Translations under genes and position numbers: made by a program
IMG/VR virus record: IMGVR_UViG_3300044294_000217
Span: 1 to 29,119 of that record
From: a virus
Direction: 5' to 3' (one strand)
Length of the DNA stretch: 29,119 nt
Shown: positions 8,108 through 26,049 of the stretch, piece by piece
How positions within the stretch are numbered: the first letter of the stretch is position 1
Layout: every line of letters begins with the position of its first letter
The notes under the pieces: generated by a model
What the model was told of the DNA's origin: nothing
The model's database searches: none
What the model saw: only the letters and a program-made list of their open reading frames with translations

Positions 8108-8108
8108 C

Positions 8109-8221
8109 GCTCACGGGGGGCCGAGGTCAAGAAGGGCAACCACCCGGCCCGCTCCCGTGAGCCCCGCCCACACACACTACGGCGGGAAGACAAGCAGGTC
8201 CAGCGACGAACCTACTTGTCT
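8109..8221 (+). other. Structured intergenic region: three consecutive stem-loops
   Basis: The 150-base gap between 8107 and the initiator gene contains no ORF but much dyad symmetry. Stem 1 pairs GCTCACGGG (8109-8117) with CCCGTGAGC (8154-8162), continues with GGGCCG (8118-8123) and CGGCCC (8145-8150), then GGT (8125-8127) with ACC (8142-8144). Stem 2 pairs CCCGCC (8163-8168) with GGCGGG (8181-8186). Stem 3 pairs AGACAAGCAGGT (8188-8199) with ACCTACTTGTCT (8210-8221), 11 of 12 bases matching. No T-run follows any stem, so a simple intrinsic terminator is unlikely. A structured leader, small RNA or replication-associated element upstream of the initiator is possible. Confidence 0.6.
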
Positions 8222-8264
8222 CAGGCATTAAGAGTACCAGCAAATAACAAGAAAGGCAATGATT

Positions 8265-8816
8265 ATGGTGTCTAAATTGGGAGGCCCGTTTATTCCGGTG
8301 CCTCGATGGGTGTTGGAATACATCAAAAAAGATGCAGTCGCCCTGCACGTGCTGGTGCAAGCCCTCATGTATCTCAACAGCGAAACGCAAGAACTGACCA
8401 CTTCTTACGATCATTTATCGACTATGACTGGTCATAGCCGTCGCACGGTCATTAGGGCCATGCACCGTCTTAGCGAAATAGGAGTCATCAAGCGAACCCA
8501 AAGGTATGGAAAGAGTGGTAAAAACCTTTCCAACCGCTACGTCATTGATTTCAATAACCCCAACGCCTTGCTAAACGGTAGGGGTGTCACGGGTGACACT
8601 AGGGTCTTTAGTGGTGTCACGGGTGACACTCCTAGGGTGTCACGGGTGACACCCCTTAGTGGTGTCACGGGTGACACCCAATCAAGAAAGAATAACCTAA
8701 ACCAAGAAAGGGGCCAAAGGGGGAAGAAGAAAAAGATTTCTGAATTGGATCTATACACTACTGATCCGAAGTGGCAACATCAAAAGAAACTTAGCGAGAG
8801 GAATGATCCGACGTGA
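8265..8816 (+). CDS. Replication initiator, winged-helix, lambda O-like, with the origin inside the gene
   Basis: 183 residues from the ATG at 8265; AAAGG at 8252-8256 is 8 bases away, while the ATG at 8259 would be only 2 away. Residues about 5-90 form a winged-helix domain: PFIPVPRWVLEYI, a helix VALHVLVQALMYL, then LTTSYDHLSTMTGHSRRTV and MHRLSEIGVIKRTQRY. This is the arrangement of phage initiators that bind iterons. Residues about 107-138 are encoded by the four iterons (repeated GVTGDT). The C-terminal ~45 residues are Lys/Arg-rich and end in a short segment that could contact the loader. It is shorter than lambda O (~300 residues). A DnaC-like loader and DnaB-like helicase follow within 2 kb. 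The initiator role is inferred from domain, iterons and context together. Confidence 0.8.
   Translation: MVSKLGGPFIPVPRWVLEYIKKDAVALHVLVQALMYLNSETQELTTSYDHLSTMTGHSRRTVIRAMHRLSEIGVIKRTQRYGKSGKNLSNRYVIDFNNPNALLNGRGVTGDTRVFSGVTGDTPRVSRVTPLSGVTGDTQSRKNNLNQERGQRGKKKKISELDLYTTDPKWQHQKKLSERNDPT
8584..8599. repeat. Iteron 1
   Basis: GTGTCACGGGTGACAC: 7-bp inverted arms GTGTCAC/GTGACAC around GG. It is read in the same codon phase as copies 2 and 4. The base before it is G in all four copies. Confidence 0.9.
8614..8629. repeat. Iteron 2
   Basis: Identical 16-bp palindrome, starting 30 bp after copy 1 (about three helical turns). Confidence 0.9.
8637..8652. repeat. Iteron 3 (different codon phase)
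   Basis: Identical 16-bp palindrome, starting 23 bp after copy 2. It falls in another reading phase of the host gene and encodes RVSRVTP instead of GVTGDT. The DNA is conserved although the peptide is not. Confidence 0.9.
8662..8677. repeat. Iteron 4
   Basis: Identical 16-bp palindrome, starting 25 bp after copy 3 and directly before the A/T- and purine-rich tract. Confidence 0.9.
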
Positions 8817-9022
8817 TGGTAACTATGTGGCAATACGAGGTGCCCGGGGTGGACGGCAAGGGTAAACCGACCCGAGTTATCCAATTGAAGGGAAGGCCCC
8901 TGCCCGCAGAACAGGTTGACGGCAAGAACATTTCTATTCCCAAGAACGGTAAGGGTGTGGAAGTTCCGACCGTGCGCGTCAGATATCACGGCCCCAAAGG
9001 GTCCAACCCCGCTGACATCTGA
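8816..9022 (+). CDS. Small hypothetical protein downstream of the initiator
   Basis: 68 residues from ATG 8816, which overlaps the initiator stop (TGATG). An in-frame GTG at 8813 and ATG at 8825 are alternatives. The protein is mostly short strands with many Lys and Gly (WQYEVPGVDGKGKPTRVIQL, VPTVRVRYHGPKGSNP) and could be a small beta-barrel. I do not recognise it. Its place between initiator and loader suggests a replication-related role, by position only. Confidence 0.6.
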   Translation: MVTMWQYEVPGVDGKGKPTRVIQLKGRPLPAEQVDGKNISIPKNGKGVEVPTVRVRYHGPKGSNPADI

Positions 9023-9426
9023 TGCACGGTGACGACGAATGGGATGTCCGAACACTAGGCGCCGATGGCGCAAAGGAACCAAATCCCGGAAAAAAAGGCG
9101 AGTCTCTTATGGGATTGGTCCAGCACTTCAGGGATATGACTGCCGGAATTATGTCGTTGAATTCCCCAACGAACGGCCCTGCCCTGATAAAGATTTTTAA
9201 AGGTTTAAAACAAAAAGGCGTTACACATAAGCAAATAACACAGATGATTGATCTATTTGCGTTTGACATTCGTAAGACTCCGCTGCCGTCCGACGTTCCA
9301 GCGTGGCGAGGCTTTGCAGGAAGGCTTGACAACTTGCATAAGCGTGTTGGAGAATCTGCTACAACGTACGACTACTCCGAGTATGGTGTTGACACACGGT
9401 TTTTAAAGAAGGAATCAAATGAGTGA
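9022..9426 (+). CDS. Hypothetical protein between initiator and helicase loader
   Basis: 134 residues, starting at an ATG that overlaps the previous stop by one base. The N-terminal ~28 residues are Gly/Lys/Asp-rich and probably disordered. Residues 30-115 are helical (GLVQHFRDMTAGIMSL, KGLKQKGVTHKQITQMIDLF, GRLDNLHKRVGES). The 'KGVTHKQITQMIDLF' helix pair is the sort seen in small DNA- or helicase-binding domains, but no family is recognised. It overlaps the loader gene by 8 bp. Confidence 0.6.
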   Translation: MHGDDEWDVRTLGADGAKEPNPGKKGESLMGLVQHFRDMTAGIMSLNSPTNGPALIKIFKGLKQKGVTHKQITQMIDLFAFDIRKTPLPSDVPAWRGFAGRLDNLHKRVGESATTYDYSEYGVDTRFLKKESNE

Positions 9427-10066
9427 GTGGAGAGGTACGCGGTATTGGCGCAACCGCCCGACTGCGGAACGACTGAAAAACGCGCACGTACCCAAACGAT
9501 TTGTCGATAAATCATTTGACAACTACAACGCGGAACAGGGTAGCCCCGACGTGCTGGATTACGTTCGTCAGTGGTGGGACAACTATGCAATTAATTCCGC
9601 ACGGGGAGAGGGCTTGTATTTGTTTGGCGGTCCGGGCTCTGGGAAAACCCATATTGCCGTAGCCACCCTCAACGAGGTAATCGTTCACCACAACGCCTGT
9701 GGCTTTTTTATTACCGCAGAGAAATTTGTTGAAGCGTCGTATGATGAGATGAAGAACGACGATGAACTGCCAGACATTTATGGTGAGCCGTTTTTGCTCA
9801 AGTACATCAACTCGGTCTACGAGATTCTTGTTCTTGACAATCTTGGTGGGGAGCGCCTTACCGACTTCACCAAACAAGTAATAACTTCAATGCTAAATAG
9901 CCGTTACGAGAATCAGTTGATTACCATCATTACCAGTGAAATTCCACCCAAGAAGTTGGATTCCATTTATGGTCCCCGCCTTGCCTCAATTCTTGCGGAG
10001 TGCTGTTTGTCCGTCCCCTTCTTAGGTAGTGATTACCGCAAGAGGGAACTTAATGGAGAAGGGTGA
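9419..10066 (+). CDS. DnaC-like helicase loader (AAA+ ATPase)
   Basis: 215 residues. Walker A is GGPGSGKT at 70-77. Walker B is ILVLDNLGG with the key Asp at about 140. A sensor-like strand is LITIITSE. The N-terminal part (RFVDKSFDNYNAEQGSPDVLDYV) is the usual lead-in of DnaC/IstB-type ATPases. The C-terminus has GPRLASILAECCLSVPFLGSDYRKRE, where 'SRL/PRLASIL-E' carries the arginine finger. Such proteins load the replicative helicase at the origin; a DnaB-like helicase is two genes downstream. Walker B has Asn instead of Asp/Glu after the catalytic Asp (DN rather than DD/DE), which may slow ATP hydrolysis. Confidence 0.88.
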   Translation: MSEWRGTRYWRNRPTAERLKNAHVPKRFVDKSFDNYNAEQGSPDVLDYVRQWWDNYAINSARGEGLYLFGGPGSGKTHIAVATLNEVIVHHNACGFFITAEKFVEASYDEMKNDDELPDIYGEPFLLKYINSVYEILVLDNLGGERLTDFTKQVITSMLNSRYENQLITIITSEIPPKKLDSIYGPRLASILAECCLSVPFLGSDYRKRELNGEG

Positions 10067-10493
10067 CATCGCCCCATACGTGACGCCGCAACTTGCGGTC
10101 ATGTTTGAACACGTCCTCGCTGCTGAGCCATCTGGCGTTCATGCCCTTGCCGCCGCAACCCGCTTGCGCGCACGAAAGTACGAAAAGTATTTGTCGTATT
10201 GGAAGCCTAACGAACTTCAAGTCAAGCACGTCATTGACACGATTGGGCGTAAGAATATTGGCGTCGTCGTGTACACCCTTTTTGAAAATGAGTTGTCCGA
10301 CGAAGTGGAAAAATGGCTTGTACGCCGTAATATCTCCACCACCGTGACGGCCTACAACAGCATCTACGAACTTGCCTCCGATCAAAAGTTCTTTCCCGGC
10401 ATCAAGCAAATATTTGTAGGCAATCAAGATCACGCGCGTATTATTGGGATTAAAGCCACCGTAATTACGGCTAATACTGGATGGTCGCTCTAA
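10053..10493 (+). CDS. Hypothetical alpha/beta protein, HAD-like C-terminal half
   Basis: 146 residues from ATG 10053, chosen over GTG 10029 because GAGGG at 10042-10046 is 6 bases upstream. Residues 1-60 are helical (ALAAATRLRARKYEKYLSYW). The rest alternates strand and helix: NIGVVVYTLFENELSDEVEK, STTVTAYNSIYELASD, IKQIFVGNQDHARIIGIKAT, VITANTGW. The 'IFVGNQDHARIIGIKATVI' segment resembles the last motif of HAD-type phosphatases (VGD--D--A/G----G), but the N-terminal DxD nucleophile is missing, so activity is doubtful. The gene lies between loader and helicase and overlaps the loader by 14 bp. Confidence 0.6.
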   Translation: MEKGDIAPYVTPQLAVMFEHVLAAEPSGVHALAAATRLRARKYEKYLSYWKPNELQVKHVIDTIGRKNIGVVVYTLFENELSDEVEKWLVRRNISTTVTAYNSIYELASDQKFFPGIKQIFVGNQDHARIIGIKATVITANTGWSL

Positions 10494-11755
10494 TGGCTAG
10501 TGCGGAAAGCCTGTTGATCAGTAAAGTTGTTCAGGAACAGGACGCGGCGTATGTGCTTAAGGCCGGAGTCAAGGCTATCCACTTCACTGAGGAGTGGGGC
10601 AAAGTTTGGTCGTGGGTCATCACCTATTGGCGCGACCACGGTGCGGTTCCCACGCCCCGTGCGGTTAAGCAGGAGTTTGGTGATATCACTCTCATTGACG
10701 CACGGAACGAGCCGTTTAGTGCGTTGGTTGATGAGGTATACGCCGCCTACAAACACCGCAACTTGTTGGAGGCAATGTCGCAGGCAATGCCTGCTCTTGA
10801 GGGTGGTAACACCACGGCGGCGCTGGAGGCGTTGGTACAGGGTGTCCACAAAGCCTCCGCGGACATTGCCCGCCTGCGAGATGTCAACTTGATTGAAACG
10901 TGGGAACAACGCGTACAAAAGTACGTTGAACTTCAAATTACGCCCAATTCTTTGCGGGGTATTCCCACCGGACTGCTTGGTCTTGATCGTATTACCTCCG
11001 GGTTCCGACCACAGCAGTTGATTACGTTCGTTGGTGAAGCAAAGCGCGGCAAGTCGCTTATGACTTTGTTTATGGCTAATGCCGCCCACCTTCATGGCAA
11101 GACCCCCCTGTTTGTTTCCTTTGAGATGTCTGCCGAAGAACAGTCGGCGCGCTATGACGCCATCGTCGCAAAGGTTCCTTACAGCAACATTCTCCGTGGA
11201 TCGATGAGCCCTAGAGAATTGGAAAAGGTTACCGAGACGTTGAAGATGCGTCGTAACATGCATCCGTTTATCATTACGGAAGATACTTCTTCGCTTACCA
11301 CCGTTAGTTCTTTGGTTGCCAAAATAAAGGAATACAGTCCTGACATTCTGTTTGTTGACGGCGTTTACCTTATGGATGACGAGAACGGCGAACCAAAGGG
11401 CTCTCCGCAGGCACTGACCAACATCACAAGGTCGCTTAAGCGCATGGCCCAGAACGAAGACATTCCGATTATCGGCACCACGCAAGTGCTTTCATGGAAG
11501 TTGGGCAACAAGAAATCTCGTCGGATTACCGCTGACGCCATTGGGTACACCTCCTCGTTTGCGCAAGATTCCGATCTTGTGCTGGGCGTGGAGTCTGATC
11601 CCGATATTGAAAACCAAGCCATTGTTCGCGTTGTCCTTGCGCGCTCCGCCCCCCTTGGGGAGATTCGCATTAATTGGGATTGGGCCAACATGGACTTTAC
11701 TGAATTAGGAGAGGATGATGATGTCGACAATGACACCGACTCGTGGTATTACTGA
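10493..11755 (+). CDS. Replicative DNA helicase, DnaB-like
   Basis: 420 residues from ATG 10493, which overlaps the previous stop as TAATG; an ATG at 10481 would add four residues. The N-terminal ~150 residues are helical, as in DnaB N-domains. The RecA-like motor starts at about 155 (LRGIPTGLLGLDRITSGFRP). Walker A is GEAKRGKS at 181-188. A DnaB signature follows (PLFVSFEMSAEEQSARYDAI), then Walker B ILFVDGVYLM with Asp289, and GTTQVLSWKLG as the sensor. The late QDSDLVLGVESDPD and ILAR/VLARSAPLGEI strings are typical. It would unwind DNA 5'-3' at the fork after loading by the product of 9419-10066. Confidence 0.88.
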   Translation: MASAESLLISKVVQEQDAAYVLKAGVKAIHFTEEWGKVWSWVITYWRDHGAVPTPRAVKQEFGDITLIDARNEPFSALVDEVYAAYKHRNLLEAMSQAMPALEGGNTTAALEALVQGVHKASADIARLRDVNLIETWEQRVQKYVELQITPNSLRGIPTGLLGLDRITSGFRPQQLITFVGEAKRGKSLMTLFMANAAHLHGKTPLFVSFEMSAEEQSARYDAIVAKVPYSNILRGSMSPRELEKVTETLKMRRNMHPFIITEDTSSLTTVSSLVAKIKEYSPDILFVDGVYLMDDENGEPKGSPQALTNITRSLKRMAQNEDIPIIGTTQVLSWKLGNKKSRRITADAIGYTSSFAQDSDLVLGVESDPDIENQAIVRVVLARSAPLGEIRINWDWANMDFTELGEDDDVDNDTDSWYY

Positions 11756-12650
11756 CGTAGCCACGGTTCTACAAGAACTTGGTGTAGACGTTACGCGAGT
11801 AGGAGAAAAAGAAATCACTGCGCGTTGCCCCGTCCACCGCAGTCGTACAGGTAAGGATGATCGCTCCCCGTCGTGGTCTATGAATGCAAGCACTGGTCTT
11901 TGGATTTGCTATGCCTGCGGAGCAAAAGGAACGTTGTCTCAACTCGTATCAGAGTTGACCGGGGAAGCCGACACCATTGTCGCTGTCCATCAATTTCTTG
12001 TTCAGAATGGTTTGAAGCGGCTCACTTGTGAAGAAACATTTACAAAAGCACCCACCATCGATTGGATGGAATTTAGTAAGTTTGTTGTGCCTTCTGACGA
12101 ACGCCTTAAGGAACGCAACCTTGATCGTGAGTCTGTGCGTAAGTATGGCATTCGATGGGCCAAGGAAAAGCAAGCGTGGGTCATTCCAATTGTTTCTGCC
12201 ATGGGTGAACTTTTTGGTTGGCAGTTGAAGGCAAAAAACTTTGTTCGCAATTACCCCTTGGGTGTAAAAAAGTCTTTTACTCTTTTTGGCATTGATCAAA
12301 TTAATTCTGACACTTGTGTGCTTGTTGAATCACCTCTTGACGTTGTGCGCATCAACACCGCCCTTGACGGCGTGTGTGGGTTGGCTACGTTCGGTGCGCA
12401 CATTAGTGACACCCAAGTGCGTCTTATCAGTACCCACGTTAACCGTTTAATTATCGCCATGGACAATGATGATGCCGGAAAATCGGCTACTAAAAAGTTG
12501 AGTAGTCGTCTTCCTGCCCTTCGTTATCCTGTTACATACCTCCAGTACAATCACACTACCGCAAAAGACATTGGTGATATGACTGACAATGAAGTGTACG
12601 AAGCCGTGAAAAATTGTTCCGTATTTCCGACGTGGGTGCCTCGTGTTTAA
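11721..12650 (+). CDS. DNA primase, CHC2 zinc finger and Toprim
   Basis: Three ATGs in tandem lie at 11715, 11718 and 11721. AGGAGAGG (11707-11714) touches the first, so the ATG at 11721 gives the best spacing and 309 residues. A zinc-binding domain uses C36-x2-H39 (CPVH) and C63-x2-C66 (CYAC). Toprim follows: CVLVESPLDVVR with Glu203, then LIIAMDNDDAGKSA with Asp248/Asp250/Asp251. Together these are the RNA-primase core of DnaG, without a helicase-binding C-domain of normal size. The start lies inside the helicase gene, so the two are translated together and probably work as a helicase-primase pair. Confidence 0.85.
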   Translation: MSTMTPTRGITDVATVLQELGVDVTRVGEKEITARCPVHRSRTGKDDRSPSWSMNASTGLWICYACGAKGTLSQLVSELTGEADTIVAVHQFLVQNGLKRLTCEETFTKAPTIDWMEFSKFVVPSDERLKERNLDRESVRKYGIRWAKEKQAWVIPIVSAMGELFGWQLKAKNFVRNYPLGVKKSFTLFGIDQINSDTCVLVESPLDVVRINTALDGVCGLATFGAHISDTQVRLISTHVNRLIIAMDNDDAGKSATKKLSSRLPALRYPVTYLQYNHTTAKDIGDMTDNEVYEAVKNCSVFPTWVPRV

Positions 12651-14187
12651 GGGCACGCTGTATCCGTTTCAACAGGAGGCCGCCGAGGCAATGGTGGACC
12701 GAGGGCAACTGCTTCTTGCTCTTGTCATGGGTGCCGGTAAAACAGTCACAACCCTTGCGGCACTTGAGGCGCTACACGAGCAATCTGAGATTGAGAAAAC
12801 TTTGATTGTTGTGCCGTCATCCCTTAAATATCAATGGGCACGAGAAATTAAAAAGTTTACTGATTCTTCTTGTGTGGTTATCGACGGTAGCGCTGGGGCT
12901 CGCCGTTCACAATGGCGCACCGCACTTAGCGCTAACTATGTCGTGGTAAATCCTGAATCACTTAGCAACGACATAGTTTTGTATGAACGTCTAAAGTTTG
13001 ACGCCATAGTGATTGATGAGGCCACCCTTATTAAAACACCAAGAGCAAAGCGTTCTCGAATGCTTAAGAAGTTGGGCAAGCGTTATCACTATCGATTTGC
13101 TCTTACTGGGCAACCTATTGAAAACAAACCAGAAGAGTTGTTTTCTATTATGGAATTTGTAGACGTTGACGTATTAGGTTCGTTTAAGATTTTTGATCGC
13201 ACATTTATTGTGCGTGATAAAAACTTTGGCAAACCAATTCGATATAGAAATCTTGCCGCCCTTCACGCGTCGCTCAAAGGTGTTATGGTTCGCAAAACTC
13301 GCGAAGACATTGCGGATCAATTGCCGGAGATTATTCACAACGTCGTCCCAGTGCCCTTTGATGTTGGTGGGTCTATTGCCTATCGCAAAATTGCAAACGA
13401 TCTTTTGCATGCCATTCAGCAGGCCATTTCTCAATACGGACGCGGGTTTGATCTGTGGTCCCACTATTACGGGACCTCTGGCAATGACGCAAAAGGCGAC
13501 ATTATGTCTAAGTTGACAGTGCTCCGGATGTTCTGTGATAATCCTGAACTGGTGCGATTGTCGGCCACCAACTATGCAGATACTAGTACGGACGAAGGGA
13601 GTCAATACGCGGCCAAGATTGTAAGCCAAGGCATTGTGCCCACAACGTGCGAAACCCCCAAACTTGATGCTGTAATTCAATACATTGCAGATGTTCTTGA
13701 ACAAGATCCTAAGAACAAAATTGTATTGTTTTCCTTTTTTAAAGCCAATCTTCGCATTATTCAGCAATCTACGCAACACCTAACAGGTAGTGTTCTTTTT
13801 ATGGGTGGAATGAGCGTACAAGAACGAGATAAATCTAAACAAATGTTTACGGACGATCCTACCGTGCGCCTATTTCTTTCCTCGGACGCCGGTGGCTATG
13901 GTGTTGACTTGCCGGTAGCCAACTATTTGATTTCCTATGACCTGCCGTGGTCGGCGGGTAAGTTGGATCAACGCGAGGCTAGAATTGTTCGCCTATCTTC
14001 AGAATTTCCACACGTCAACGTTGTTTCTTTCGTCATGCGCGGTAGCATCGAGGAGCGACAGTACGAAATGCTTCAAGAAAAAAGGAACATTAACAAGGCA
14101 TTTGTTGACGGTGGGTATGACTACAAGGGTAATTATCAGATTAACCTTGGGGCTCTCTCCGACTTCATCAGAAACAGCGAGGTATAA
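12643..14187 (+). CDS. SNF2-like DEAD/DEAH-box helicase
   Basis: 514 residues from a GTG start that overlaps the primase stop. This start is needed to include the Q-like motif LYPFQQEAAEAM. Motif I is MGAGKT (29-34). Motif Ia is TLIVVPSSLKYQWAREI. Motif II is VIDEAT (Asp125-Thr128). Motif III is FALTGQPIENKPEEL. The second lobe has KIVLFSFFKANLRI, LFLSSDAGGYGVDLPVANYL and motif VI QREARIVR at about 443-450. 'LTGxPIxN' and 'GGxGxDLxxAxYLI' are signatures of SNF2/RapA-type translocases. Such proteins are common in phage replication modules and may clear DNA-bound proteins or remodel forks; strand separation is not assured. DEAT in place of DEAH/DEAQ is a mild oddity. Confidence 0.88.
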   Translation: MFKGTLYPFQQEAAEAMVDRGQLLLALVMGAGKTVTTLAALEALHEQSEIEKTLIVVPSSLKYQWAREIKKFTDSSCVVIDGSAGARRSQWRTALSANYVVVNPESLSNDIVLYERLKFDAIVIDEATLIKTPRAKRSRMLKKLGKRYHYRFALTGQPIENKPEELFSIMEFVDVDVLGSFKIFDRTFIVRDKNFGKPIRYRNLAALHASLKGVMVRKTREDIADQLPEIIHNVVPVPFDVGGSIAYRKIANDLLHAIQQAISQYGRGFDLWSHYYGTSGNDAKGDIMSKLTVLRMFCDNPELVRLSATNYADTSTDEGSQYAAKIVSQGIVPTTCETPKLDAVIQYIADVLEQDPKNKIVLFSFFKANLRIIQQSTQHLTGSVLFMGGMSVQERDKSKQMFTDDPTVRLFLSSDAGGYGVDLPVANYLISYDLPWSAGKLDQREARIVRLSSEFPHVNVVSFVMRGSIEERQYEMLQEKRNINKAFVDGGYDYKGNYQINLGALSDFIRNSEV

Positions 14188-15779: not shown

Positions 15780-17831
15780 ATGATCCAAACGGTTCACACC
15801 GTTTCGGAACTCCACGAGGTAATTGCCGCCGTACAAGACAGCGGTACATTTGCCTTTGACGTTGAATCGCGTGGGGTTCTTGAACGTCACGAAGATGTGT
15901 ATGAGTACTTCACTAAGGAGTGCGCTGACCACATTAAGACGCTTAAGAACCCTACGTCGGATATTGTTGCTCGCTCTACTGAAACAATTCGCGCGCGATA
16001 CCTCCAAGAACTTGCGCTTGACCCTTTGCGCAACGAGGTGTTTTGGATTGGCATTGCTACCGCTGGCCGCTCGTGGGCAATTCCTATGGGGCACAAGTTA
16101 GGCGTAGTGCTTCGCCCAGAGGAGCGTGGAGAAGGAGATACCGTCCCCCCACCGGGACATCGCAAGGTTCTCAAAGACGGGTCGGAGTCTATAGCAAAAG
16201 CCAAGTATGTAATTCCGGCTGAGCATAGTCCCGCCCCCGAGCAGTTGTCCAAGTCGGAAGTTTTTGAGACACTGCGCCCCATTTTCTTTTCTAACTACAT
16301 CAAAGTTGGACACAACATTAAGTTTGATGTGCGTTCTATCCAAAAGTACTACGAAGAAATACCCGATGGTCCGTTCCGTGACACGATGGTCCTCCAACAC
16401 ATTTACGATGAAAACATTCCTTCTTTTGCTTTGAAGCAACTTATTGCCCACAACTTTGGCGGACATGATGCCTATGCCAAGGATGGCAAGATTGGAAAGA
16501 TCATTGACACTGTTCCATTTGACAAGGCTGCTGTTTATGTTCACCTTGACGTTCGGTGGACGTGGCTTCTCTATAACAAGTTGATGGCAAAACTTAAGAT
16601 TAATGCTGATCTCTTGCCCGCCATGGAACAGGACATGCAGGTGTTGAACGTTTTGATGCATATGGAAAACGAGGGAATTCAAGTAGATACGCATGCGCTA
16701 AAGCGCCTTCGTAAGGAACTTGATAGCAAGTTGACGCAGACGCTCCTCGCCATTTCTGAAATCGCTTACCCCGGATTTAATCCGGACTCTAATAAAGATA
16801 AACAAACATTGTTGTTTACTGGAAAACGTAAAGGTGGTCTTGGACTCAGGCCCACCAAGCGGACACCCAAAGGTGCACCATCTGTAGATAATGAGGCACT
16901 GGAGAGACTCCGGGGTAAGCATCCAATTATTCCTCTGCTTCTTGACTGGTCAGAACTTCAGAAACTTAAGGGAACTTATGTTGAAGGCTTGCTGCCCAAG
17001 TTGAATCGCGGAAAGTTGCATCCCTCGTTTCACCTTCACCGCACGGCGACAGGGCGGCTTTCTTCGTCTGACCCCAACCTGCAGAACATTCCTCGAGACT
17101 CCAGCATCCGTGGTTTGTTTGTTCCGCCTGACGGACACACCATGCTCGTAGCCGACTATGACCAAATTGAACTGCGTGTCATGGCTATGTTCAGTCAGGA
17201 TAAAGAGTTGTTGCGAATCTTTAGGACAGGCGAAGACATTCATACGGCCACCGCTGCCGCGGTGTTCAAGAAGGACATTTCTAAAGTTACGGCAAGCGAG
17301 CGGCAGGTGGGAAAAGGCGTTAACTTCCTTACCGCTTACGGGGGAGGCGCCGCCAAGTTAGCCCGCGTCACCAGTATTGATGATTCTCATGCCGCAGATA
17401 TTCTTAAGGCGTACTACAGAAGTTTTGCTGGATTGACACAGTGGAAGCAGACGGCAATTGCCAAAGCAACCCGGAATGGTTACGTTACAACTATCAGCGG
17501 ACGGCGTAGGAGGCTTCCAGACCTTACTTCCCAATACCAAGAAATGGTGTCGCGGGCGCAGAGGCAAGCCATCAATGCCATCATTCAGGGAAGTGCCGCA
17601 GATATTTGTAAAGAAGCAATGGTAGCAGTTAACAAGGCTTTTGCGGGAACGCCCGCTCGCATGCTTGTTCAGGTTCACGATGAATTGGTCGCCACTGCCC
17701 CCGAAGACAGACAAGAATATTTTATCAAAACTCTTGTCCACGCCATGGGCCACGAAAGATCTATCATGGGGGTCTCTCTTAAGGTTTCGTGCCACTCGGC
17801 ACGTAGTTGGTCGGAGGCCAAAGGCAAATGA
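15780..17831 (+). CDS. DNA polymerase I (family A) with 3'-5' exonuclease domain
   Basis: 683 residues. The exonuclease domain occupies about 1-280, with FAFDVESRG (Asp27, Glu29), KVGHNIKFDV and a YVHLDVRWTWLLY motif (Y-x3-D). It contains an insertion of roughly 60-70 residues after Exo I, with no motif I know. The polymerase domain has TGRLSSSDPNLQNIP, motif A VADYDQIELR (Asp459), motif B RQVGKGVNF with Arg508, Lys512 and Phe516, and motif C VQVHDELVA (His633-Asp634-Glu635). Phe516 aligns with E. coli Phe762, the residue used to group viral PolA. There is no 5'-3' exonuclease domain. It would be the phage replicase. Confidence 0.95.
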   Translation: MIQTVHTVSELHEVIAAVQDSGTFAFDVESRGVLERHEDVYEYFTKECADHIKTLKNPTSDIVARSTETIRARYLQELALDPLRNEVFWIGIATAGRSWAIPMGHKLGVVLRPEERGEGDTVPPPGHRKVLKDGSESIAKAKYVIPAEHSPAPEQLSKSEVFETLRPIFFSNYIKVGHNIKFDVRSIQKYYEEIPDGPFRDTMVLQHIYDENIPSFALKQLIAHNFGGHDAYAKDGKIGKIIDTVPFDKAAVYVHLDVRWTWLLYNKLMAKLKINADLLPAMEQDMQVLNVLMHMENEGIQVDTHALKRLRKELDSKLTQTLLAISEIAYPGFNPDSNKDKQTLLFTGKRKGGLGLRPTKRTPKGAPSVDNEALERLRGKHPIIPLLLDWSELQKLKGTYVEGLLPKLNRGKLHPSFHLHRTATGRLSSSDPNLQNIPRDSSIRGLFVPPDGHTMLVADYDQIELRVMAMFSQDKELLRIFRTGEDIHTATAAAVFKKDISKVTASERQVGKGVNFLTAYGGGAAKLARVTSIDDSHAADILKAYYRSFAGLTQWKQTAIAKATRNGYVTTISGRRRRLPDLTSQYQEMVSRAQRQAINAIIQGSAADICKEAMVAVNKAFAGTPARMLVQVHDELVATAPEDRQEYFIKTLVHAMGHERSIMGVSLKVSCHSARSWSEAKGK

Positions 17832-18564: not shown

Positions 18565-19584
18565 ATGGCAGATTACAGTTCACTTGCTTCTATCATCGAT
18601 TCCGTTAATAAGAAGTACGGCGTTGAAGCCGTTATTCGCGGGAGTCAAATTCAAGAGCATATAACGAGAGTCACCACTGGCATCCTTGCGTATGACCTGA
18701 TGCTTGGCGGTGGCTGGCCCGCAAATCAGTGGAGCGAGATCATTGGTGATGAGTCGTCTGGCAAAACGGCCATTGCCCTCAAGACCATTGCAGCAAACCA
18801 AATGCTTGACCCTGAGTGGACTGCTGTGTGGATTGCTGCTGAGGAGTTCGTACCGGAATACGCAAAAGCAATTGGCGTCGACCTTGACCGCCTGTGGATC
18901 GTTGAAATTAACCTTATGGAACAAGCGTACAACCTTGTAATTGACATCATGGCCAATCGTGCCGCCGATTGCGTAGTCATTGATTCCCTTCCGGCGCTCG
19001 TTCCCTCTGACGAATCTGAGCGTCCCATGGACGAATTCACCGTTGGTCTTGGCGCGCGTCTTACTTCCAAGTTCTTCCGTAAAGCCGCCCCGGCGCAGAA
19101 ACGTTCAAAGACTGAACAGGACAGGGCATGCACTGGGCTTATCGTTAATCAGTGGCGTGAAAAAATTGGTGTCATGTGGGGTGACCCGCGCACCACCCCG
19201 GGCGGTAAGGCCAAAAACTTTCACTACTTCACTCGCGTTGAGGTTAAGCGCGATGAATGGATTAAGAACAAGGATGAGATTGTGGGACAAACCATCAAGG
19301 CTCGCACTATGAAGAACAAGACGTATAGGCCCTCGCAAGCAGCCGTGGTTGATTTCTATTTTGCTCCCTATCAAAATTTCAACCTTGGTGGGTTTGACAC
19401 CATCAAGGACATGGTGAATATTGCCACCGTTGTTGATATCGTTACCCGCGCTGGTGCGTACTACGCCTACAAAGATCAGCGCTGGCAGGGAAAAGACAGG
19501 ATGCTTGAATCGTTCCGCGAAGACCTTTCTCTGCAGGCAAACCTCAAGACGGATATTGAACAACGTTTCAAGGTGTCTCGATAA
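18565..19584 (+). CDS. RecA-like recombinase
   Basis: 339 residues. Walker A is GDESSGKT (61-68) within EIIGDESSGKTAIALKTIAA. Then follow VWIAAEEFVPEYAKAIGVDL, Walker B DCVVIDSLPALVPS and the L2 region GLIVNQWREKIGVMWGDPRT, which continues TPGGKAKNF as in bacterial RecA ('N-Q-x-R-x-K-x-G-V-x-x-G-x-P--TPGG-A'). The length is close to bacterial RecA and it reads as RecA/UvsX rather than RadA. It would form filaments on single-stranded DNA for repair and recombination-dependent replication. Two PD-(D/E)XK nuclease genes follow directly. Confidence 0.92.
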   Translation: MADYSSLASIIDSVNKKYGVEAVIRGSQIQEHITRVTTGILAYDLMLGGGWPANQWSEIIGDESSGKTAIALKTIAANQMLDPEWTAVWIAAEEFVPEYAKAIGVDLDRLWIVEINLMEQAYNLVIDIMANRAADCVVIDSLPALVPSDESERPMDEFTVGLGARLTSKFFRKAAPAQKRSKTEQDRACTGLIVNQWREKIGVMWGDPRTTPGGKAKNFHYFTRVEVKRDEWIKNKDEIVGQTIKARTMKNKTYRPSQAAVVDFYFAPYQNFNLGGFDTIKDMVNIATVVDIVTRAGAYYAYKDQRWQGKDRMLESFREDLSLQANLKTDIEQRFKVSR

Positions 19585-23604: not shown

Positions 23605-24089
23605 AGCAAGCATTCTCTGATTGGAACAACCCATCGCTTCCCCCTGAAGCAGGGACTCAGCCTCTCATGGGGCCCGCTCCCGTTTTTCGAAGCGCTAAAG
23701 ACTATCAATTAGCGGGATATAGGACATTGCAAGATACGACGTATCCAGACGGCTACCTCGGCACTATGTCCTCTAACCGTCGTCAAGACAAGATTTTGGG
23801 CACACTAAACCGCATGAATGCTCGCCAGTATTCTCGCGGTGTGCACAAAGGAGAGCGCATCAACCAAGGCGACTATCTATGGCCCAACGAATTCAACTTG
23901 TATACGGGCCTTCAGTATCAAGATGCTGGAGTTAAGTTTGCCCCTCCCGGCGCCGAACCGGTTCGCCTCACCAACGATGGCAAAGTTGGTCCTAAGGGGC
24001 TACCCCGCACCACTGATCAAGAGCCCGCGGCAGAAATTAATGCGGAACGGCGAGCAAAACTGCAAACTCTAAGACCCACGTGGCGATAA
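23598..24089 (+). CDS. Hypothetical protein, start codon inside a hairpin
   Basis: 163 residues, ATGA overlap with the small lysine-rich ORF. GGTGGG in the hairpin loop (23587-23592) is the likely ribosome site, 5 bases before the ATG. The protein is polar and Pro/Asn/Gly-rich (FSDWNNPSLPPEAGTQPLMG, GYRTLQDTTYPDGYLG, NQGDYLWPNEFNLYTGLQYQ, GVKFAPPGAEPVRL). There is little predicted helix except TMSSNRRQDKILGTLNRMNA. No family recognised. Confidence 0.65.
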   Translation: MNQQAFSDWNNPSLPPEAGTQPLMGPAPVFRSAKDYQLAGYRTLQDTTYPDGYLGTMSSNRRQDKILGTLNRMNARQYSRGVHKGERINQGDYLWPNEFNLYTGLQYQDAGVKFAPPGAEPVRLTNDGKVGPKGLPRTTDQEPAAEINAERRAKLQTLRPTWR

Positions 24090-24092
24090 ACT

Positions 24093-25577
24093 GTGGCAAA
24101 AGTAGATAAACGCAAAGTAACTGGTAGAGGGGAAGTTGTTACTGGGCCCTTGGCCGGGGAATATGCTTTTCCGCATGAAACCAAAGAGTTTGAAAAGGCC
24201 GTTATAGCAGCAAAAAAAGAACGCAGAGCAGTTGTCAAAGAGGCTTGGGAGAAAACACCACGTGGAACACCAGCAAGATATGATTTGGAGAACGCTAAAC
24301 GTAAAGGACTTAAATACTCAATAGCACTTCCTGAACCTGACGCTGATACGCACAATGCAAGGTTAAAAGAGGAACGAATTAAGGCAGGAACGTGGAGACA
24401 GTCCCAGTACTTGAAGTCATTAAGCGCCGCTCTGGAAGCCCCACGTGAAGCACAAAAGGCTGCTGGATATGACAAGATGACTAAAGAAGAAAGGGACCAA
24501 TGGTGGGCCACCAATAACCTGACTGTGGGAGACAAATTAGCGTCCAACAGGGGCAAACCGGATAAAAAAGCACAGGATCGTGATAATCTTTCTAAACCTA
24601 ATACAACGGGAGATGTAACAATGGCTGAAGACACTGAAAAAGACCCTACACCCACCGACACGAAGACGGGTAAGGGGAAACCAAAAAGAAAAAAGGTTAC
24701 TATGACTCCTGCTGTTGCTGCCGCAACTGAAAAAGCCGCTGCCGCAGTTTCTGATAAAGGTGGAAGTAAAAAGCCTGCTGCTAAGAAGCCTGCTGTTAAA
24801 AAGCCTGATGCCAAAAAGCCTGATGCTAAGAAGCCCGCAGATAAACCTTCCGCAATCACCCGGGTTGATGGGCCTCCAAAGAATTTTGGTGCAAACAAAC
24901 GTGGCGATGGTGGATACAACGATGATGTTCGCCGCTACAGCGAACGACTGGGTAAGGAAAAAGGACTTACTGGTGCTTCACCAAAGGATGACGGCGATCA
25001 GCGTCAAACCCCGTCGATAAAACCGCTTACGCCTAATGATGGCCCTGCTACCACGGGTGGCCCTGCTACCACGGGTGGCTCTGCTACCACGCCAACATCT
25101 AAACAGCCAAAAAAGCCGAGTCTTGGTGCTCGCATTCGTAATTTGTTTGGTAATCGCGGCAAACGAACTCCTGCTGCAACCCCCACACAACCCGCCCCCA
25201 CACAGCCCGCCCCCACACAGCCCGCCCCCACACAGCCCGCCTCCACACAACCCGCCCCCGCCGACGCTGGCAGTTCTCGCGCAAATACCGGCGGCCACAA
25301 TGCGTTTAGCAACTCGGGCAATGTCAACATTAGTGGAACCATTAATGCCAACGGCTCTGACATGCGTGGAGCATTTCGTGGTGGCGATCCCTATCAACAG
25401 CACAACCAGCAAATTTCTGGAAGTGGTCCAGTCACTGCAACGACCTCCGGTCGCGCGCAGCGTTTTGGAGCAGGCGCAGGCGGTGTTGTTGCCAGCACGA
25501 CTGGCAGTGCAACAAGCGACCATCCTCGAGCAAGAAATTCTTCTCGCAGCAGTCGTCCCACCTCTCGTAAAAAGTAA
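24093..25577 (+). CDS. Large low-complexity Lys/Ala/Pro protein with a shared C-terminal module
   Basis: 494 residues from a GTG without good ribosome site, 3 bases after the previous stop. Residues 1-175 are charged helices. About 225-250 hold five KKPxx pentapeptides (KKPAAKKPAVKKPDAKKPDA). About 317-334 hold three (G-P/S-A-T-T-G) units. Then come a basic segment (LGARIRNLFGNRGKRTP) and TQPAP repeats. Residues about 402-440 form a module (GNVNISGTINAN, DMRGAFRGGDPYQQHNQQIS) also present in 27911-28684. The last 50 are Ser/Gly/Arg-rich. An in-frame ATG at 24621 with GGGAG 8 bases upstream could start a shorter product (MAEDTEKDPTPT). Probably disordered apart from the module; function unknown. 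Confidence 0.6.
   Translation: MAKVDKRKVTGRGEVVTGPLAGEYAFPHETKEFEKAVIAAKKERRAVVKEAWEKTPRGTPARYDLENAKRKGLKYSIALPEPDADTHNARLKEERIKAGTWRQSQYLKSLSAALEAPREAQKAAGYDKMTKEERDQWWATNNLTVGDKLASNRGKPDKKAQDRDNLSKPNTTGDVTMAEDTEKDPTPTDTKTGKGKPKRKKVTMTPAVAAATEKAAAAVSDKGGSKKPAAKKPAVKKPDAKKPDAKKPADKPSAITRVDGPPKNFGANKRGDGGYNDDVRRYSERLGKEKGLTGASPKDDGDQRQTPSIKPLTPNDGPATTGGPATTGGSATTPTSKQPKKPSLGARIRNLFGNRGKRTPAATPTQPAPTQPAPTQPAPTQPASTQPAPADAGSSRANTGGHNAFSNSGNVNISGTINANGSDMRGAFRGGDPYQQHNQQISGSGPVTATTSGRAQRFGAGAGGVVASTTGSATSDHPRARNSSRSSRPTSRKK
24768..24842. repeat. Five 15-bp tandem units (KKPxx)
   Basis: Units start at 24768, 24783, 24798, 24813 and 24828, each AA(A/G)AAGCC(T/C) plus six variable bases. In frame; silent changes between units show age or selection against exact repeats. 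Confidence 0.75.
25041..25094. repeat. Three 18-bp tandem units
   Basis: GGCCCTGCTACCACGGGT is repeated exactly at 25041 and 25059, and as GGCTCTGCTACCACG with a changed end at 25077. Near-identity suggests recent expansion. Confidence 0.85.
25191..25260. repeat. 15-bp tandem units (TQPAP)
   Basis: CCCGCCCCCACACAG is repeated exactly at 25191, 25206 and 25221, then CCCGCCTCCACACAA at 25236 and a partial unit at 25251. In frame, near-identical, so probably variable in copy number between relatives. Confidence 0.85.
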
Positions 25578-25588
25578 TTGTAAATAAC

Positions 25589-25594
25589 TAAAAT
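25589..25594 (+). promoter_or_regulatory. Candidate -10 box in the A/T-rich gap before 25611
   Basis: The 33-base gap 25578-25610 is very A/T-rich and contains TAAAAT, with AAGGG (25601-25605) as ribosome site 5 bases before the ATG at 25611. No -35 is evident. Confidence 0.3.
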
Positions 25595-25610
25595 AAATTA
25601 AAGGGTTACA

Positions 25611-25883
25611 ATGGCTAAATCAGCCGCATGGCAACGTAAAGAGGGGAAGAACCCTGAAGGTGGGTTGAACGCTAAGGGTCGTGCTTCGTACAAGCGTGAA
25701 ACTGGCGGAACTCTCAAGCCCCCGGTATCGAGAGAAGAGGCTTCTAAGTCTAAATCCAAAGCCGCTCGTCGTAAATCGTTTTGTGCTCGTATGGAGGGCA
25801 TGAAGAAAAAGAACACATCCTCTAAAACCGCTCGTGATCCAAATAGTAGAATTAATAAGTCACTAAGAAAGTGGGATTGTTAA
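25611..25883 (+). CDS. DUF6321-like small basic phage protein
   Basis: 90 residues. AWQRKEGKNPEGGLNAKGRA, YKRETGGTLKPPV, KSFCARMEGMKKKNTSSKTA and RDPNSRINKSLRKWDC form a strongly conserved pattern that I associate with a small protein found in many unrelated tailed phages (DUF6321). The name is from memory and the function is unknown. It is short, basic and free of membrane segments. Confidence 0.75.
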   Translation: MAKSAAWQRKEGKNPEGGLNAKGRASYKRETGGTLKPPVSREEASKSKSKAARRKSFCARMEGMKKKNTSSKTARDPNSRINKSLRKWDC

Positions 25884-25884
25884 T

Positions 25885-26049
25885 ATGGCTAAGAAACCCG
25901 TCTGGAAAAAAGAAAATCCAAATAAGGGCAAGTCTAAAAAACTTACTCCTTCGGAAAAGTCAGAGGCTAAGGCACGTGCTCGTAAGGCCGGACGCCCATA
26001 CCCTAACCTTGTTGACAACATGGCGGTTGCAAAAAAGAAAAAGGGCTAA
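25885..26049 (+). CDS. Small basic phage protein with RPYPNLVDNM motif
   Basis: 54 residues, one base after the previous stop. It reads MAKKPVWKKENPNKGKSKKL, then a helix TPSEKSEAKARARKAG, then RPYPNLVDNMAVAKK. The N-terminus echoes the neighbouring DUF6321-like protein (MAK-x-x-W-x-K-x-x-x-N-x-x-G), so the two may be related or act together. Similar 'AGRPYPNLVDNM' proteins occur, to my knowledge, in other large phages. Function unknown. Confidence 0.7.
   Translation: MAKKPVWKKENPNKGKSKKLTPSEKSEAKARARKAGRPYPNLVDNMAVAKKKKG

Follow-up and report, generated by a model that had tools for sequence, protein, structure and literature searches.

A probable lambda O-like replication origin within the initiator gene of an apparently undescribed phage group

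Introduction

Phage replication origins that lie inside the gene of their own initiator, as in lambda O and SPP1, are an already known architecture. In lambda, two O proteins bind each iteron and a 39-bp AT-rich region adjoins the array; complementation persists when O carries small in-frame deletions in this AT-rich region (PMC6022878). In SPP1, the gp38 gene contains oriL with repeats and an AT-rich unwinding element, and the system includes a separate loader and a phage DnaB-type helicase (PMC6316719). The O genes of Stx phages carry mid-gene iterons beside an AT-rich tract, and their O proteins are dimeric (PMC7466680). For the actinophages, an origin has been proposed just upstream of or within repA of mycobacteriophage Miko, and no repeats were recognised in the region examined in the Miko group (PMC7157519).

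In this study, we analyzed a virus record of 29,119 bases (hereafter the window, meaning this stretch at its full length), in which an earlier note had proposed a lambda-type origin on the basis of four iterons within a putative initiator gene. Our results suggest that the segment from 8584 to ∼8760 is very probably a lambda O-like phage replication origin, located within its own initiator gene; the relatives, whose iterons occupy the same place, support this reading. To our knowledge, few lytic origins have been mapped in actinophages that themselves encode a family A polymerase and a DnaB.

Results

Four exact copies of GTGTCACGGGTGACAC were identified on the plus strand of the window: iteron 1 at 8584–8599, iteron 2 at 8614–8629, iteron 3 at 8637–8652 and iteron 4 at 8662–8677, with starts spaced by 30, 23 and 25 bp. 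The arms of this 16-mer are perfect 7-bp inverted repeats flanking GG. When up to three mismatches were allowed, eight matches were found on both strands, compared with a mean of 0.17 in shuffles of the window, and the four-copy array is far beyond chance. All copies lie inside a single plus-strand open reading frame (8259–8816, 185 aa), in which copy 3 differs in codon phase from copies 1, 2 and 4, which are all in the same phase. Thus, exact searches, family matches and the reading frame all agree with the earlier note on the positions of the copies within a winged-helix initiator gene and on the deviating phase of the third. It should be noted that iterons 2 and 4 are identical across 22 nt, comprising the 16-mer and its left flank, and hence part of the identity may stem from recent duplication or conversion. 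It is unusual for the four sites to be perfectly identical, as they are in the window: this was the case in just 1 of 32 arrays.

Comparison with known systems revealed that lambda O, which was run as a control, is similar to the window in having four palindromic in-gene iterons at near-equal offsets and spacing (gene offsets 348, 368, 392 and 415 for the annotated iterons of lambda O and 325, 355, 378 and 403 in the window), with an A-rich stretch after them (the 60 nt past the lambda iterons have A 0.50 and T 0.18). The phage group to which the window belongs differs from lambda in its iteron, a 16-bp GTGWC-N6-GWCAC, in the size of its initiator (160–190 aa versus 299 aa for lambda O), in a DnaC-like AAA+ loader (phrog_50) instead of lambda P, and in having its own DnaB, primase and PolA. 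The SPP1 gp38/oriL system shares the in-gene origin, a dedicated loader and a phage-encoded DnaB with the window, whereas it uses the gp39 loader, host PolC and DnaE, and a second origin, oriR; the window phage has its own PolA. No second array of the oriR kind was detected in the records, in which sites outside the gene are isolated and single, the window itself being a 29-kb fragment. Stx phages are Gram-negative lambdoid phages with six iterons, four of them strongly bound, compared with four in the window. The RepA-like initiators of Arthrobacter phage Prairie and of Miko resemble that of the window in coming from actinophages and having a helix-turn-helix domain, although the Prairie protein is longer and only a weak match. 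Four palindromic repeats ∼22 bp apart, placed after a winged-helix region and followed by A/T-rich repeats, were also observed in the DnaD-like gene of Geobacillus phage PT9.1 and in saliva caudovirus D_HF5_3, but their iteron sequences are unrelated to those of the window and there is no close protein relationship. A different arrangement was noticed in Klebsiella phage KpS8 (L090:1506–1820), in which a winged-helix 'replication initiation protein' of 98 aa precedes ∼310 bp that have no annotated gene and contain GTGAC-like and A/T-rich repeats, possibly an origin outside the gene.

The initiator gene (8259–8816, plus strand) encodes a winged-helix domain, a linker that would contain the origin and a C-terminal helix, as judged by PHROG matches, homologs and an AlphaFold2 model. 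It matched PHROG families annotated as 'replication initiation' or 'replication initiation O-like' with E-values of 4.5e-14 to 2e-6; among them, the O-like families 391, 678 and 345 gave 1e-9 to 2e-6. Pfam winged-helix models matched below their cut-off. Profile comparison with lambda O itself (hhalign) was not significant (E 0.14), so direct homology is carried by the PHROG families only. Both the family matches and the structural model placed a winged-helix DNA-binding domain at the N-terminus (8304–8549, residues ∼16–97, pLDDT mostly 70–91), with helices 50–57 and 61–74 and the wing strands forming a confident fold. The best Foldseek matches were generic winged-helix regulators, none below E 0.001, and searches of solved structures gave only generic winged-helix proteins. 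Confidence was low from ∼105 to 168, which includes the iteron-encoded part and was modelled as disordered, and also for the C-terminal helix (170–181). This predicted helix and the motif LDLYTTDPKW, in which D169 is invariant across 40 sequences, are together encoded at 8745–8801 (plus strand) and are a candidate contact to the loader or helicase. The likeness of LDLYTTDPKW to LDLTNTDW at the end of lambda O, noticed by eye only, is a lead.

To examine the relatives, a profile built from six homologs was used, which detected 63 loci in viral metagenomes, corresponding to 43 distinct proteins with that of the window counted. As the earlier note had suggested, the homologous gene was searched for iterons at the same place. 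Using GTGWC-N6-GWCAC with at most one deviation as the criterion, we found exactly four sites at the same gene position in 37 of the 43 distinct homologs; since the motif was derived from the same data, its fixed positions are invariant partly by construction, which does not apply to the number, place and spacing of the sites. The four-site genes showed spacings of 22/24/24, 24/22/24, 22/24/23 or 30/23/25 (range 22–30 bp). Across phages, conservation is restricted to the half-sites GTGWC and GWCAC, which are 11 bp apart, or about one helical turn, and this fits two protomers on one helix face. The relatives showed the reverse of a retained peptide with lost palindromes, the pattern that would have spoken against the lambda-type reading. 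Exceptions to the four-site rule included L078 and L079 with additional sites, L076 with three sites and one decayed, and L072, which is truncated by the contig end. In L075 (2501–2836), one iteron remains and the shortened initiator frame stops just past it, possibly due to a deletion between iterons or to an assembly effect. The sites of L063 (2492–3022) are of the variant form GTATC...GATAC. In the predicted recognition helix of the same protein an R-to-I change (SRRT to SRIT) was noticed, a possible site–protein co-change in a single case. The 18 related records have sizes of 29–97 kb, and those fully listed contain 3–5 exact sites in the gene and 0–3 scattered outside it.

The segment following site 4 (8678–8760, plus strand) is A-rich (A 0.47, T 0.16), contains CAAGAA repeats and, on the basis of composition and repeats, is a likely unwinding element. 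By A content it ranks among the top 0.03% of 50-nt windows, but its duplex stability reaches only the lowest 2.3%, and other stretches of the window are less stable. Most relatives have CAAGA repeats 13–16 bp apart past site 4, on a plus strand that is A-rich and T-poor. However, in L022, L025 and L026, the three relatives nearest to the window, A+T makes up only 50–52% of the 60 nt past site 4. Given this moderate stability and composition, the unwinding role appears likely but not strong in the clade of the window.

The genes downstream of the initiator form a replication operon. A small, poorly conserved open reading frame (8813–9022) and a conserved gene with no family match (9022–9426, plus strand, in 59 of 63 loci) precede the DnaC-like AAA+ helicase loader (9419–10066, plus strand; phrog_50, E 3.8e-42), which was present one to two genes downstream in all 45 loci with enough downstream sequence. 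They are followed by a conserved open reading frame (10029–10493) and a DnaB-like replicative helicase (10481–11755, plus strand; PF03796, E 2.5e-29; phrog_19, E 6e-60; 57 of 63 loci). Each of the frames 9022–9426 and 10029–10493, the loader and DnaB was found in 57–59 of the 63 related loci. Further along the plus strand lie a DnaG-like primase with Toprim and zinc ribbon (11715–12650; phrog_47, E 2.8e-48), an SNF2-type helicase (12643–14187; PF00176, E 3e-37), a family A DNA polymerase with a 3'-5' exonuclease domain (15780–17831; PF00476, E 2.8e-111), which is present in all 18 related records, and a RecA-like recombinase (18565–19584; PF00154, E 2.4e-54). The lambda O layout proposed earlier stands as to the N-terminal domain, the mid-gene iterons and a loader downstream, but the loader is not adjacent because the frames 8813–9022 and 9022–9426 intervene. 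The polymerase, RecA and SNF2 helicase bear out the view that the replisome otherwise differs from that of lambda. The genes upstream of the initiator are of contractile-tail type. In the gap before the initiator (8108–8258), two apparent inverted repeats were observed (GCTCACGGG...CCCGTGAGC and AGACAAGCAGGT...ACCTACTTGTCT), which might serve as a terminator or as a regulatory site separating the tail genes from the replication genes. A strong AT skew (0.34 and 0.20) was observed across 24001–26000, where the open reading frames have no family matches.

With regard to hosts, WhiB genes were detected in 12 of the 18 records (the window has none) by a profile that, in the control set, matched Corynebacterium only. 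This points to actinobacterial hosts, and the phage group is probably actinobacterial. The nearest isolate DnaB proteins were those of Streptomyces phages (35%). The closest of these isolates, phage BRock, was considered as a relative and rejected: it gave no family match to an initiator, and no iteron array was present at 55–62 kb around its DnaC gene. No relatives were found among bacterial genome contigs or plasmids, and no near DNA match to the window was found among phage isolates. We also scanned DNA for GTGTCN6GACAC pairs using no protein information. Among the matches listed, 43 of 80 were arrays inside an initiator gene of the window family, and others belonged to different O-like initiators (for example, phrog_8540, E 1.4e-63). 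L099, L131, L105, L133 and L094 are such O-like or winged-helix initiators outside the family with GTGTC...GACAC arrays; some of the 37 listed loci outside the family resemble chance or other features.

If the sites were selected as protein, VTGDT-like repeats would be the target and the DNA repeats a by-product. Three of the four sites of the window do encode GVTGDT, but in every four-site gene (37 of 37) the sites occupy two codon frames and yield peptides that have nothing in common (VSHESP, VTLETL and SVTGDT, among others), within a segment modelled as disordered. Resampling of synonymous codons in the window left a mean of 0.09 sites, none of 2000 replicates reached four, and the outcome was alike in nearly all homologs. 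The use of two frames in each gene and the failure of synonymous reshuffling to recreate the sites indicate that selection acts on DNA. Codon conservation in the gene was highest at iteron 4 and the block after it: codon identity at shared residues was 0.45 in the winged helix versus 0.92 at site 4 and TQSR. The A-rich, repeated block past site 4 (CCAATCAAGA...) is maintained in two reading frames, with CCCAATCAAGA being read as ACC-CAA-TCA-AGA in most genes and as CCC-AAT-CAA-GAG in L080. Selection on the peptide thus appears highly unlikely, and selection on DNA, as the earlier note had claimed, is borne out by mixed frames, resampling and codon conservation. The note's own ground, the identity of the four copies, is weaker, as it could reflect recent homogenisation. 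With regard to homogenisation of site centers within a genome, likeness of the central six bases was equal within one array (0.55) and between same-numbered sites of different arrays (0.54); a permutation test that ignores phylogeny gave 0 of 2000. The array, its conservation, the DNA-level selection and the linked operon are direct outcomes of computation.

DNA-level selection could also serve a function other than an origin. The winged-helix protein might be a transcription regulator whose sites repress or time the downstream replication operon. This agrees with the palindromic sites, the operon downstream and a fold whose nearest matches are generic regulators (CodY and MarR, for example). 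However, the sites lie ∼325–420 nt into the gene and away from the promoter, A-rich repeats adjoin them, the geometry is lambda-like, the PHROG matches are O-like, and loader and DnaB are constantly linked. We consider a purely regulatory array improbable, though the same sites may have a regulatory side effect. Alternatively, the inverted repeats might form mRNA hairpins, as this segment of the window is predicted to fold much more stably than its shuffles (z −6.2; relatives, z −3.1 to −6.6), but any inverted-repeat array yields low energies and the predicted topologies vary between relatives. Moreover, of 162 sites, 44 lack the pair between positions 4 and 13, pairs 7–10 and 8–9 occur at or below chance, and conserved compensatory changes across homologs are absent. 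As the half-site sequence is kept and the pairing is not, double-stranded DNA binding is favored, and an RNA structure would be very surprising. Palindrome arrays also mark partition, incompatibility or packaging sites, which counts for such a role here. Nevertheless, the neighbors are replication proteins and the open reading frames scanned (part of those in the window) yielded no recognisable partition gene, making this reading scarcely credible. Several observations count against the origin reading itself. The GC-skew signal predicted near 8.6 kb was not found, as the skew along the window shows neither an inflection nor a switch there; the moderate stability and composition of the A-rich segment, the non-significant profile comparison with lambda O and the single iteron of L075 are further contrary points.

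Discussion

On the basis of motif symmetry and the domain present, we infer that each 16-bp iteron would be bound by the winged-helix domain of the initiator. Two protomers would most likely do so together, reading GTGWC half-sites that face the same side of the helix at a distance of 11 bp. By analogy with the lambda O-some, four bound iterons, 22–30 bp apart, might wrap into a nucleoprotein complex, and the resulting strain may open the adjoining A-rich repeats at 8678–8760. Gene order and motif suggest that the conserved C-terminal helix would then recruit the phage DnaC-like loader, which would place the phage DnaB, and that synthesis would be started by the primase and the family A polymerase. 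The iteron-encoded protein segment would act as a disordered tether whose sequence is of little importance.

Relative to the origins already described, what this study adds is the phage group, its site model and the combination of such an origin with a replisome built on a phage family A polymerase. More generally, there may be an even chance that a large, apparently undescribed actinobacterial phage group relies on a replisome encoded largely by the phage itself (DnaC-like loader, DnaB, primase and family A polymerase) and starts it from a very compact initiator gene of 160–190 codons that unites origin DNA and protein, and that four iterons and unwinding repeats persist over deep divergence while slipping between frames. 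The frame-switching sites offer a clear example from nature in which signals in DNA take precedence over the protein sequence. Using a site model as simple as four copies of GTGWC-N6-GWCAC in the initiator gene, sequence data alone would suffice to place a predicted origin within ∼180 bp in the genomes of dozens of uncultured phages. If this holds true, replication origins would be readable directly from the DNA of uncultured phages.
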